Shown in pieces: positions 27,242-32,271 of a DNA stretch of 63,737 nucleotides. The stretch is from Candidatus Altimarinota bacterium (GTDB lineage: Bacteria > Patescibacteriota > Gracilibacteria > JAHISY01). Where the stretch lies: positions 1-63,737 of the forward strand of contig JAQVAZ010000002.1 of NCBI GenBank assembly GCA_028690585.1. Direction: 5' to 3'. Below the pieces are notes generated by a model. That model saw only the letters and a list, made by a program, of their open reading frames with translations. It was not told the origin of the DNA and ran no database searches. Both the position numbers and the translations under genes were made by a program. The stretch's first letter is position 1; every line of letters starts with the position of its first letter.

Positions 27242-27318
27242 GCGCTCGTAGCTCAGCTGGATAGAGCACCGGTCTTCGGAACCGGGTGTCGCAGGTTCAA
27301 ATCCTGCCGAGCGCACCA
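27242..27318 (+). tRNA. tRNA-Arg (anticodon UCG)
   Basis: Cloverleaf with acceptor GCGCTCG/CGAGCGC, anticodon stem CCGGT/ACCGG enclosing CTTCGGA (anticodon TCG after T33), T-arm GCAGG-TTCAAAT-CCTGC, and an encoded CCA end. 77 nt including CCA. Confidence 0.95.
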
Positions 27319-27397: not shown

Positions 27398-28813
27398 TTA
27401 ATCCACTCGGAAATGCGCGCCTAAGCTTTTTTTGCGCCGCAAGGCTGCTGCTACCACTAGCTTCCCTACGGTTACTGCATTCTTACTTACGAAACTGCGC
27501 GGCTTCAATTTCTGCAAAGTTTTCTGCGCAGCCATCAATCCTCGTTTCTCTCTTATGATTCCGACATTCTTCCACATTAGATTTCTCACGAGTGGGAGAA
27601 TTTTCAAATCTTCTTGTAAATCAAAAACATAGTTAGGAATTTTTGCTTCCGCTGTTTTTATTTCAATCACTTTCCCAGCTTTCCCTACTGCTAATCCAAA
27701 AACTACTGCCTCGGCGAGAGAGTTACTGGCCAGGCGGTTGCCTCCGTGGATTCCAGTGTCGGCGACTTCCCCCACTGCAAAAAGATTTTTCAAATTGGTT
27801 TCACTGCGGAGATTGGTAACCACTCCACCACATGCGTAATGCGCTACCGGGAAAATCGGAATCAAATCTTTCGCGAGATTGAATCCCGCTTTTTTCACTT
27901 CTTTCCAAATCAGTGGGAAGCGCGCTTCGAGAAATTTCGCATCTGCGCGCGTGAAATCTAGATAAACTTTTCCATTTTTCATTTCCTCAAAAATCGCGCG
28001 AGAAACAATATCACGCGGCGCTAATTCTGCAGCGGGGTGATAAGCAGGAAGAAATCTTTCTCCACGAGAATTCCGCAAAACCGCACCTTCACCCCTTAGT
28101 GATTCGCTTAGCAAAGTTAAGCGGGTTTGTTTTCCTACTAGCGCAGTAGGGTGAAATTGCACGAATTCTAAATCCCGCAGTTTCGCGCCAGCGCGGTAAG
28201 CCGCCGCGATTCCATCACCAACCGAAACTTTTGGATTGGTAGTCTTGGCATAGAGTTGCCCGAAGCCACCAGTAGCAAGAATCGTTTGACCAGAAGCTAA
28301 AACAAAAATCTTCTTACCAGTTTTGAGAATCCCACCTACGCAAACTTTTTTCTCCATCGCGAGATCCAGCAGAGTGGCATTAGTCAGTATCCGAATATTT
28401 TTTCTTTTCTTCACTTCCGCCGCCAAAACTTTTTCAATCGATTCACCCGTAGAATCGCGTGTATTCCAAACACGCGAATGTGAATGCGCAGCTTCACGGG
28501 TTGGATTTTTCCGGAAAGGCACTCCGAGTTTCGTAAGCCAATCCACTGCTTTCGGCGCATTCTCTACGAGAAATTTCACCGCCGCTTTATTATTAATTCC
28601 GCAACCAGCAGTGAGAGTATCTGCAAAATGCTCCGCGAAACTATCCCAGCGAAAATTTCTTACCGCAGCGATGCCAGCCTGCGCATAGCGCGAAGAAGAT
28701 TCCAGCAAGTTAGATTTCGTTGCAATCACAACGCTGCCTTTTTCGCTCAACTTCAAAGCCGCGGTTAGCCCCGCGATACCGCTGCCGATAATGAGGAAGT
28801 TAGTTTGATTCAA
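27398..28813 (-). CDS. nadB: L-aspartate oxidase
   Basis: 471 residues with an N-terminal FAD-binding dinucleotide fold (FLIIGSGIAGLTAALKL), the SSSRYAQAGIAA block, the active-site region of the succinate dehydrogenase/fumarate reductase flavoprotein family (VQFHPTAL, HYACGGVVT) and GLAVGKAGK-type C-terminal helices. It oxidises aspartate to iminoaspartate, the first step of NAD synthesis. It overlaps the upstream nadC by 14 bp in the same operon. Quinolinate synthase (nadA) is not in the window. De novo NAD synthesis is unusual among CPR bacteria. Confidence 0.94.
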   Translation of the reverse strand: MNQTNFLIIGSGIAGLTAALKLSEKGSVVIATKSNLLESSSRYAQAGIAAVRNFRWDSFAEHFADTLTAGCGINNKAAVKFLVENAPKAVDWLTKLGVPFRKNPTREAAHSHSRVWNTRDSTGESIEKVLAAEVKKRKNIRILTNATLLDLAMEKKVCVGGILKTGKKIFVLASGQTILATGGFGQLYAKTTNPKVSVGDGIAAAYRAGAKLRDLEFVQFHPTALVGKQTRLTLLSESLRGEGAVLRNSRGERFLPAYHPAAELAPRDIVSRAIFEEMKNGKVYLDFTRADAKFLEARFPLIWKEVKKAGFNLAKDLIPIFPVAHYACGGVVTNLRSETNLKNLFAVGEVADTGIHGGNRLASNSLAEAVVFGLAVGKAGKVIEIKTAEAKIPNYVFDLQEDLKILPLVRNLMWKNVGIIREKRGLMAAQKTLQKLKPRSFVSKNAVTVGKLVVAAALRRKKSLGAHFRVD

Positions 28814-29669
28814 TTTTTAAGCTTAAATCCAAAGCTTTCGCGGAGTGGGTGAGGTAACCCATCGAAATATAATCTACTCCTGCAGCGAGGAATTTCCGCG
28901 CGTGTTTTGGGGTAATTCCACCGCTTCCCTCCAGCGTGATTTGCGGATTAATTTTCCGTAACTTCGGAATGAGTTTCTTCAATTGCTTCGGAGAAAAATT
29001 ATCCAGCAAGAGAATTAGATTTTTTTGTTTTCCAAAAAATTCTGCAATCTTGATTGCCAACTTCTCACTATCCGCTTCGATTTCGAAAGACTTCGTAGTT
29101 TTAATTTTCTGCCAACAATTTTTATCTGCTCGAATGTGATTTTCTTTCACCAGAATCAGATCAGCGAGATTCAATCTGTGTGGTAATCCTCCGCCCACCA
29201 CCACTGCTTTCGAATCCAGCAAGCCCCAAGGAGTTTTGCGCGTGGCGGCAAATTTTCTCACACCGATTTTCTTCGCAACATGGTGAGCTGCTGTTGCAAT
29301 ACCACTCATGCGTTGCAGCAAATTCAACACCACTCTTTCCACCGTGAGAATATTTTTTGCGCTTCCGCTTAATTCCAAAAATACTTTTCCTTTTTTCACC
29401 TTCCCACCATCTTTCACCAGCGCTTTCACTTTCACTCCATGCTTCGTGAGAAACCAAACCGCTTCTTCTACTCCTGTGAGGATCCCATTTTCTTTCGCAG
29501 TGATTTTTGCTTCCATCTTCCTCGCAGAATTTCCAAGCAATGCTGTGGTGATATCTCCACTACCCACATCTGCTTTGTATAAAACTTCTAACAACTCACT
29601 CACAAATTTTCGATAAGCAGGTTGCTTCATACTGAGATGCGCGATTTGAGAAGCAAAGAGTTTTTTCAC
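28800..29669 (-). CDS. nadC: Nicotinate-nucleotide pyrophosphorylase (carboxylating)
   Basis: 289 residues with the quinolinate phosphoribosyltransferase signature: GDITTALLG, ERVVLNLLQRMSGIAT, ATRKTPWGLLDSKAVVVGGG, HRLNLADLILVKENH and a C-terminal EGSGGITPKHARKFLAAGVDYISMG. It converts quinolinate and PRPP to NaMN, two steps after NadB. GTG start. CGCTAAAAT (TAAAAT at plus 29676-29681) ends 6 bp before it, predicting a leaderless operon mRNA. Confidence 0.94.
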   Translation of the reverse strand: MKKLFASQIAHLSMKQPAYRKFVSELLEVLYKADVGSGDITTALLGNSARKMEAKITAKENGILTGVEEAVWFLTKHGVKVKALVKDGGKVKKGKVFLELSGSAKNILTVERVVLNLLQRMSGIATAAHHVAKKIGVRKFAATRKTPWGLLDSKAVVVGGGLPHRLNLADLILVKENHIRADKNCWQKIKTTKSFEIEADSEKLAIKIAEFFGKQKNLILLLDNFSPKQLKKLIPKLRKINPQITLEGSGGITPKHARKFLAAGVDYISMGYLTHSAKALDLSLKIESN

Positions 29670-29835: not shown

Positions 29836-31356
29836 TCAGAGTTTTTTCTCCATATAAATTTTTTCCCTATCTAGCGAGTAGCCGAGCTTCCGATAGTATT
29901 CTCTCACTCCCACTCCGGAGATAATTTTAAGTTTTTTGTAGCCACTTTGCTTCGCAATTTTCTCTGCTTCCGCAATCAGCTTTTTTCCAAATCCGCGATG
30001 CTGGCTATCACCTCTGCCGCCGATTCCCAACTCTTCTCCGTAGGTGTGCAGCTCTCGCACAAACGCGAAATCTTTCACTGCTTGTAAACGCAGGCGTGTC
30101 AGCGCAATCAGCTTTTCGTCTTCTTCAAAACTCAGGAAAATTTCCAAACCGCCACTCGCAGCATATTCTCTGCGCACAAGTTTTATTTTTTTCTCATCGA
30201 TTTTCCCGCCACGGATTTCTCGGCAGCGGATGCAATTACACTTCGCACCTTGTTGTTGGAGGATTTGTCTGAGGTTGGTGATTTTACTGCCAGCGAGAAT
30301 GGATTCTGCGGGGATATCGCGAATCACGCGCGAAAGGCGAATCCACTCTGGCGTGATTCCTTTAATTTTCGCGAGGAGTTTCGTCAGCGTGGCATCGTTG
30401 TAAGGTTTCCACTTTCCCTGCTTCCACCATTTCACCAATTCCGTATTCGCAATCAAAGCGCAGGGATAAATTTTTAACTGATCTGGAGAATAATCTTCGC
30501 TGCCATAAACTTCCTGAAACATCGCGAAATCACTCGCGGGAGTTGCGCCAGGGAGGTTTGGCATGAAGTGTAATCCCACTTTCAACCCCGCATCTTTCAG
30601 TAATTTAATCGCGTTTTTCGTAGAGGCTGTATCGTGGCCGCGTTTTGTTTTTCGCAAGACTTCATCGCTGGTAGATTGCGCGCCTAATTCCACTCTGGTT
30701 GCGCCAAGCTGCAAAAATCTTTTTACTTCGGCTGGCGTGATGCAATCGGGCCGAGTTTCGAGAGTGAGGCCTACCATGCGATGCTTTGCTTTTTCATTCG
30801 CTTTTTTCAGTGATTCCAAATCTTTCTTGCCTTTGCTTTTTTCATTCAATGCTTCCAAACATCTACTGATAAACCAAGTTTGATAGCGCTTCGGTAGCGC
30901 AGAAAAAGTGCCACCCATCACAATCAATTCCACTTTGGTAGTTTCGTGGCCGCAAGCAGTCAGCGCCTCCAGTCGAGTTTTTACTTGGAGATAAGGATCG
31001 AATTTCACACGATTCGCGCGCATCACCGCTGGTTCATTACTTAAATAACTTTTGGGCATGCCTTTTTCTGTGGGGCAGTAAATGCATTTGCCTGGGCAGC
31101 CCCACTCTTTCGTCAGCACCGCCACAGGAGAAACTCCCGAGAGAGTGCGAATCCGCGCTTTCTTCAAAATTCTTTCCAAGCTCGGTTGTGGCTGGATTTT
31201 CCCTTCGCTGAGTAATTCCGTATAAGCGGCAATCAAATCTGAGTTGCGGAAAAGATTTCCGCTGATTCCAGCCGCTTCGATTTTGAGCTTGCGCAAATCG
31301 GCTTCCACCGCGCAATTTTTCTTAATCGCTTCTAGAATAAGCTGGCTAGCATCCAT
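29836..31356 (-). CDS. elp3: tRNA uridine(34) cm5U-forming Elp3 (radical SAM/acetyltransferase)
   Basis: 506 residues, the usual full length. The radical SAM core holds the cluster motif CPGKCIYCP after LTKEWG, then VIMGGTF-like LIVMGGTFSALP and LGAQSTSDEVL. A zinc/lysine linker includes CNCIRCREIRGG. The C-terminal GNAT domain shows GIGGRGDSQHRGFGKKLI and GVREYYRKLGYSL. Elp3 makes the cm5 group on wobble uridine of tRNAs, using acetyl-CoA and SAM. The Elp3-only system is known from archaea and a few bacteria. A Trm9-like methyltransferase gene diverges from it with a 7-bp gap. Confidence 0.96.
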   Translation of the reverse strand: MDASQLILEAIKKNCAVEADLRKLKIEAAGISGNLFRNSDLIAAYTELLSEGKIQPQPSLERILKKARIRTLSGVSPVAVLTKEWGCPGKCIYCPTEKGMPKSYLSNEPAVMRANRVKFDPYLQVKTRLEALTACGHETTKVELIVMGGTFSALPKRYQTWFISRCLEALNEKSKGKKDLESLKKANEKAKHRMVGLTLETRPDCITPAEVKRFLQLGATRVELGAQSTSDEVLRKTKRGHDTASTKNAIKLLKDAGLKVGLHFMPNLPGATPASDFAMFQEVYGSEDYSPDQLKIYPCALIANTELVKWWKQGKWKPYNDATLTKLLAKIKGITPEWIRLSRVIRDIPAESILAGSKITNLRQILQQQGAKCNCIRCREIRGGKIDEKKIKLVRREYAASGGLEIFLSFEEDEKLIALTRLRLQAVKDFAFVRELHTYGEELGIGGRGDSQHRGFGKKLIAEAEKIAKQSGYKKLKIISGVGVREYYRKLGYSLDREKIYMEKKL

Positions 31357-31363
31357 AGATACA

Positions 31364-32023
31364 ATGAGTTTACGCGAAAATCTTATCGGCTACGATTCAA
31401 TTGCTGCGCAGTGGGATGCCACACGCAAATCTCCATGGGGAGAATTTGATTTTGCCAAACATCTTTTCAGCGCGAAAAGCATTCTCGATGCTGGTTGTGG
31501 CAATGGAAGATTGGTGAGTTGGCTACGAGAAGGAGGCTTCACTGGAAAATATCTCGGAGTGGATTCCTCTGGTGAATTAATCCAGAAAGCTCAGCAAAAT
31601 TTCCCAGCAGAAAAATTTCTCCACGCAGATTTACTCAGCTTCATTTCCAAGGAAAAATTCTCCGCAGTGTTTTGCGTCGCAGTTTTGCATCACTTACCTG
31701 ATGCAGCTTCCCGCCTCCAAGTTTTACAAAATCTTTACGCGAATCTCGAAGCTGGTGGAGAATTATTTCTCACCACTTGGAATCTCTGGCAGCCGCGCTA
31801 TTACAAATATATTCTCAAAAGTTTTTTCACCAGAAATTACCGCAACTGCTATCTGCCTTTATTCGGCAAAGGAGGGAGGTTGATTCATGCCTTCACTGCG
31901 GGGGAATTGCTTCGCTTACTTGAAAAAGCCGGTTTCCACAACATCCAAGTTTTCCCTGCTAATCAGGGTAAACGCGCAAGAGTTTGGCAAGCGCGCAATC
32001 TTGTTGTTTTAGCTAAGCGATAA
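31364..32023 (+). CDS. SAM-dependent methyltransferase, Trm9/ALKBH8-like
   Basis: The frame opens upstream inside elp3; ATG at 31364 (MSLRENLIGYDSIAAQWDAT) is the natural start, giving 219 residues. Class I methyltransferase motifs: SILDAGCGNGRL (motif I), LGVDSSGELI (II), FSAVFCVAVLHHLP (IV), and LEAGGELFLTTWNL. The opening YDSIAAQWDATRKSPW and the AVLHHL...TTW pattern resemble Trm9/ALKBH8, which O-methylate cm5U34 to mcm5U34. Its position beside elp3, which makes cm5U, supports that role. A generic methyltransferase of another pathway remains possible. Confidence 0.75.
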   Translation: MSLRENLIGYDSIAAQWDATRKSPWGEFDFAKHLFSAKSILDAGCGNGRLVSWLREGGFTGKYLGVDSSGELIQKAQQNFPAEKFLHADLLSFISKEKFSAVFCVAVLHHLPDAASRLQVLQNLYANLEAGGELFLTTWNLWQPRYYKYILKSFFTRNYRNCYLPLFGKGGRLIHAFTAGELLRLLEKAGFHNIQVFPANQGKRARVWQARNLVVLAKR

Positions 32024-32025
32024 AA

Positions 32026-32271
32026 ATGGAAAATAAAGATTCTGAAATTCTCGAAGGTGAAGTGGTGAGTGAGATTCCTCATGCTCAACATGAAAAAAAA
32101 TCTTCACGCAACTATTCTCCACTACTAAAGCTTGTTAAACTAAAATCCAACTGCGCTATCGGATGCTTCACTTCTCTCGCCTTGACGGTAATTGCTATCG
32201 CAACTGGAAGTTGGTTGGTTTTCTTACTCGCGCTTTTGTTGCCAGCTTGGTTAGCTGCGCAGCAACGCTAG
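32026..32271 (+). CDS. Small membrane protein, 81 aa
   Basis: The N-terminal ~45 residues are polar and charged; the C-terminal ~35 contain one long hydrophobic stretch (FTSLALTVIAIATGSWLVFLL, shown in part) ending LPAWLAAQQR. It starts 2 bp after the methyltransferase stop and so is probably co-transcribed. It overlaps the start of the SLH-CAP gene by up to 109 bp in another frame. Function unknown. Confidence 0.6.
   Translation: MENKDSEILEGEVVSEIPHAQHEKKSSRNYSPLLKLVKLKSNCAIGCFTSLALTVIAIATGSWLVFLLALLLPAWLAAQQR

Follow-up and report, generated by a model that had tools for sequence, protein, structure and literature searches.

A Trm9-like methyltransferase linked to Elp3 in Patescibacteria: a candidate minimal wobble-uridine pathway

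We describe a Trm9-like methyltransferase whose occurrence is linked to that of Elp3 throughout a phylum of bacteria most of whose members lack MnmG. The window analysed here is the whole 63,737-nucleotide stretch of contig JAQVAZ010000002.1 from Candidatus Altimarinota bacterium (Patescibacteriota; Gracilibacteria), whose CPR affiliation, suspected in the earlier note from the letters alone, is supported. In this window the two genes are arranged head to head. The pair probably constitutes a minimal wobble-uridine pathway, in which Elp3 would generate cm5U34 and the Trm9-like enzyme would convert it to mcm5U34; we infer the activities, the tRNA substrates and the ester product from sequence.

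The divergent locus and its Elp3

The elp3 gene (29836..31356, minus strand) encodes a radical SAM/GNAT enzyme of 506 aa, the predicted maker of cm5U34 in tRNA. On the plus strand, the frame 31364..32023, with its ATG at 31364 and its stop ending at 32023, encodes a 219-aa Trm9-like class I SAM-dependent methyltransferase that is predicted to carry out the methyl-esterification of cm5U34 to mcm5U34. The opposite orientation of the genes and the distance of 7 bp between their starts were confirmed, the coordinates being exact: as read from the sequence, only positions 31357..31363 lie between the start codons. A promoter for either gene must therefore be located mostly within the opposite gene, and a search for promoters around the divergent starts (31150-31600) gave no sigma-70-like site.

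Other features surround the pair. Directly after the methyltransferase stop, positions 32026-32271 encode an 81-aa probable small membrane protein without a Pfam match. Downstream of elp3, on the minus strand, the gene of a FAD-binding protein resembling L-aspartate oxidase (NadB; 27398-28813) overlaps a quinolinate phosphoribosyltransferase gene (NadC; Pfam QRPTase; 28800-29669, minus strand). The NadB-like and NadC genes read like part of de novo NAD synthesis, genes for which are unusual in a CPR genome. The earlier note also drew attention to a tRNA-Arg(UCG) gene (27242-27318). The distance from this gene to the stop codon of elp3 is indeed about 2.5 kb, but we give this proximity no weight as evidence, since genes intervene before elp3 is reached and since this tRNA is absent from the yeast mcm5U set, which consists of Arg-UCU, Gly-UCC, Lys, Gln and Glu tRNAs (PMC5372719).

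The minus-strand gene product is unambiguously an Elp3 by family. It scores 533 bits with TIGR01211 ELP3 (cut-off 350), both the radical SAM and the GNAT domains are matched in Pfam, and it aligns over nearly its full length with the solved archaeal and bacterial Elp3 proteins of Methanocaldococcus and Dehalococcoides, with E-values down to 1e-126. The CxxxCxxC cluster motif, here CPGKCIYC, and the acetyl-CoA-domain motifs align with both of the solved entries 5l7j and 6ia8, and the solved proteins also align with the zinc-type linker KCNCIRCRE and with the acetyltransferase-domain stretches VRELHTYG, QHRGFG and REYYRKLGY. In family f15 of the class, a HAD-like hydrolase domain (Pfam HAD_2) is fused N-terminally to Elp3 (L069:870-3356), and a long Elp3 frame similar to this fusion is also present in L070.

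Likeness of the methyltransferase to Trm9

Taken as a single sequence, the evidence is too weak to put a name to the METHYLTRANSFERASE family. Pfam returns superfamily models only, the named NCBIfam models fall far below their cut-offs, and in a phmmer search of PDB with the window protein alone Yarrowia Trm9 (5cm2) ranks 12th, behind other enzymes. An identity as UbiG, UbiE, BioC, Tam or CmoB was rejected, on NCBIfam scores far below cut-off and on the tree, in which the E. coli members fall outside the clade of the family. When 55 relatives from the window's class were combined in a family profile (A1) and searched against 177,635 PDB sequences, Yarrowia Trm9 came first (107.6 bits, 5.5e-30) and the runner-up scored 75.0 bits. 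As a control for the pull of a rich profile, we compared random sets of 12 family members with 12 CPR methyltransferases that are not linked to Elp3. Trm9 scored 88-101 bits with the 12-member family profiles and 40 bits with the control profile. E. coli Tam, BioC, UbiE, UbiG, CmoM, CmoA and CmoB reached at most 52 bits with the family profiles, and the references other than Trm9 showed no such preference for the family. CmoM, the E. coli cmo5U34 carboxyl methyltransferase, likewise esterifies a wobble-uridine carboxylate, yet its scores with these profiles were 23-38 bits, far from the range of Trm9. In the reverse direction, the sole match reported in the window's genome for a Yarrowia Trm9 query was the window methyltransferase.

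Substitutions R29A, H115A, R241A, Y243A and N271A impair yeast Trm9 (PMC5372719). In the HMMER alignment to Yarrowia Trm9, which we used for residue mapping, yeast R29, H115, R241 and N271 correspond to R21, H110, R172 and N212 of the window protein. R21 and H110 are present in 57/57 sampled family members and all four residues in 51/57, the Asn being placed by the HMMER alignment, as the residue table has a gap at the Asn of Trm9 itself. The four were found together in 0/20 other CPR methyltransferases and in none of the E. coli and PDB outgroups tested. The equivalent of Y243 is position 174, which is Tyr in 38 of the 57 family members and Ile in the window protein. The AlphaFold2 model of the methyltransferase is confident (pLDDT 95.3), and its strands 161-165 and 171-175, in the matching part of the sequence, are candidates for the two-stranded active-site lid of Trm9. 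A Foldseek search of PDB with the model indicates a class I methyltransferase only: the top 50 are assorted small-molecule methyltransferases, including sugar N-methyltransferases such as TylM1, and Trm9 is absent from these 50.

In a phylogenetic tree, Trm9 lies inside the family clade (support 98/97), and Trm9 and the family together stand apart from UbiG, UbiE, BioC, Tam, CmoA, CmoB and CmoM. This placement is to be read with the long branch of Trm9, with the representation of Trm9 as a whole by a single eukaryotic sequence, and with AU tests that leave unrejected a position of Trm9 with another CPR group (p 0.20) or immediately outside the family (p 0.32). Close to the Trm9-like family, the tree also shows a distinct, well-supported group made up of other CPR methyltransferases (L183-L193 and L201; 12 sampled rows), several of which come from genomes without Elp3. 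Overall, the earlier suggestion, made by eye, that the 219-aa protein is Trm9-like is largely borne out, both by the profile search, in which Trm9 is the best match to the family profile, and by the active-site residues.

Association with Elp3 across the phylum

A single compact divergent pair is by itself unremarkable. We examined a set of 80 Patescibacteria loci (from Gracilibacteria, Peregrinibacteria, Moranbacteria, Nealsonbacteria, Uhrbacteria and others). An elp3 gene diverges from the methyltransferase gene at a distance of no more than 600 bp in 53 of the 71 loci with enough upstream DNA, and elp3 is present in 61/80 loci, as against 16/80 for the next recurring neighbour family; recurrence at this level is not due to chance. 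Among other genes near the pair are a serine hydroxymethyltransferase in 16/80 loci (e.g. L141:2487-3788) and a folD-type gene in 13/80 (e.g. L152:491-1363), that is, one-carbon genes beside a SAM-using tRNA pathway.

The dependence on Elp3 extends to whole genomes. In an evenly drawn sample of 192 Patescibacteria genomes, with a presence line of 110 bits that was set after the scores were seen, the methyltransferase exceeds the line in 48 genomes, and Elp3 is present in 48/48 of these. The methyltransferase was found in 0/123 Elp3-negative genomes of this sample; the closest of them, at 101.9 bits, is 78% complete and belongs to a family that otherwise has Elp3. In 39 of the 48 methyltransferase genomes the genes are head to head within 300 bp. 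The Fisher p of 5e-29 for co-occurrence overstates the number of independent events, since the genomes are related, although the pattern spans about 31 families. The sample also contains 21 genomes with Elp3 and without the methyltransferase. The dependence is thus one-way, as expected of a second, downstream step. Moreover, in families f7, f10, f12, f14 and f22 of the class both genes are present but separated, which argues that the link is more than adjacency. The earlier note had named an unrelated family affiliation with no conserved elp3 neighbourhood as grounds for giving up its reading; this check was made and did not refute the assignment of the methyltransferase. In families f10, f12, f14, f22 and f24 the matches to Elp3, MnmA and the methyltransferase contain many in-frame TGA codons, which fits a genetic code in which TGA specifies an amino acid; the corresponding genes of the window's genome have none.

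All our statements about genome content depend on searches, including those for other wobble-uridine enzymes. MnmG, on which the standard bacterial U34 side chain depends, was found in 0/117 class genomes tested, with positive controls, and is missing in 187 of the 192 phylum genomes. Elp3 occurs in 0/5 of the phylum genomes with MnmG, five being too few to prove exclusion. The 2-thiolation enzyme MnmA is present in 52/52 near-complete class genomes, including that of the window. Trm112 (PF03966) was not found in the window's genome, where a strongly diverged Trm112 could escape the search, and matches occur in 2/117 class genomes, both of family f5. Because Trm112 was sought and not found, we call the protein Trm9-like and do not assign it to the Trm9-Trm112 family. 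The searches returned neither a Trm112 homologue nor a sign of the standard MnmEG route, in keeping with the earlier interpretation.

Proposed pathway, alternatives and known systems

In the proposed pathway, Elp3 alone, with the other Elongator subunits presumably absent, would place a carboxymethyl group on U34 of certain tRNAs to give cm5U34. The Trm9-like enzyme would then use SAM to methylate the cm5U34 carboxylate, giving mcm5U34, and would work without a detectable Trm112 activator. On some tRNAs MnmA could add a 2-thio group, which would give mcm5s2U34. The pair would replace the MnmE-MnmG route, MnmG being missing in the lineage.

Two other readings are unlikely. The first is that the methyltransferase acts on a sugar or lipid precursor of the cell envelope together with a WecG/TagA-type glycosyltransferase, with elp3 as a neighbour by chance or through shared regulation. 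In many families of the class a PF03808 WecG/TagA gene overlaps the end of the methyltransferase gene by a few bases or directly follows it, and in f2, f15 and f27 the Trm9-like domain is fused with a WecG/TagA/CpsF-type glycosyltransferase domain (L061, L062, L063, L064, L065, L066, L067, L068); the sugar N-methyltransferases among the nearest solved folds would also suit such a role. However, WecG is present in 231/242 class genomes, including f5, from most of which Elp3 and the methyltransferase are absent, and in the two f5 genomes that do have the methyltransferase it is elp3 that adjoins it, WecG being elsewhere or about 4 kb off. WecG is a neighbour in only 25/76 loci, is not adjacent in most loci from other lineages, and lies on a separate contig in the window's genome, whereas the methyltransferase never occurs without Elp3 in the phylum sample. 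Since WecG occurs whether or not a genome has the methyltransferase, we demote the envelope role and read the WecG coupling as a lineage-specific operon and fusion. That the fusion proteins attach a sugar to the wobble base made by Elp3, giving a new glycosylated wobble uridine in some bacteria, is a far-fetched idea to which we attach hardly any credence.

The second reading, which we consider about as improbable as an envelope role, is that of an Elp3-dependent tRNA U34 methyltransferase of Trm9 ancestry with another product, either a further-modified cm5U or a methyl group elsewhere on the nucleotide. It would share the co-occurrence and active-site evidence, and the Ile that takes the place of Tyr at the equivalent of Y243, together with the lack of a Trm112, leaves room for an altered specificity. 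Against this, the remaining four Trm9 residues are kept, and no reaction on the product of Elp3 would be simpler than methylation of its carboxyl group. An unrelated function as a generic class I methyltransferase, with a likeness to Trm9 at the superfamily level only, would fit the superfamily names from curated libraries and the single-sequence PDB search led by other enzymes, but is very improbable in view of the 32-bit lead of Trm9 over the second PDB match with the family profile, the control profile, the residue match and the genome-wide dependence on Elp3.

The pathway from cm5U34 to mcm5U34 stays the preferred reading, and it has counterparts in known systems. Known Trm9 needs Trm112. 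The window enzyme resembles the eukaryotic Trm9-Trm112 enzyme and the ALKBH8 methyltransferase domain in its class I fold, in the aligned R, H, R and N residues and R-x-x-H-x-[FY]-x-x-x-E-[LI] stretch, and in a substrate presumed to be made by Elp3; it differs from eukaryotic Trm9 in being bacterial, in having Ile at the Y243 position, in its head-to-head arrangement with elp3 and in that no Trm112 was found. The usual bacterial xm5U34 route, MnmEG with MnmC or MnmL-MnmM, also builds the C5 side chain of U34 in stages, a later one being carried out by a methyltransferase. However, its enzymes are different, its product is cmnm5U or mnm5U, and MnmG was not found in the window's class.

A further parallel is archaeal. 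Elp3 without the other Elongator subunits, accompanied by a Trm9 homologue, is found in Haloferax volcanii and Sulfolobus solfataricus; such homologues occur in some archaea and are clustered in S. solfataricus (PMC2584109; PMC5372719), so the pathway, in the earlier note one usually regarded as eukaryotic, is not confined to eukaryotes. Archaeal Elp3 makes cm5U34 alone in vitro (PMC5372719). In H. volcanii the archaeal Trm9 is activated by Trm112 (PMC8651126), whereas no Trm112 was found in the window's genome and thiolation there would fall to the bacterial MnmA. Among bacteria, Dehalococcoides mccartyi has a stand-alone Elp3 that is a close sequence match; a 2019 paper presents it as a rare bacterial Elp3, in passages that mention no linked methyltransferase (PMC6367351). 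According to a 2017 review, no genes with significant similarity to the Trm112-partnered methyltransferases of eukaryotes, Trm9 included, were found in bacteria (PMC5372719). Our literature search, with most subscription papers outside its scope, returned none joining CPR, tRNA modification and Elp3, and none on the pair in Patescibacteria.

The final steps of wobble-base modification on the tRNAs of these bacteria are thus probably those used by archaea and eukaryotes. If so, very small bacterial genomes would carry wobble chemistry of the archaeal and eukaryotic type, Trm9-type catalysis would be possible without Trm112, and a two-gene system would be at hand for studying mcm5U formation. 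The pair also offers a testable answer to the question of the fate of cm5U in those bacteria that have Elp3.
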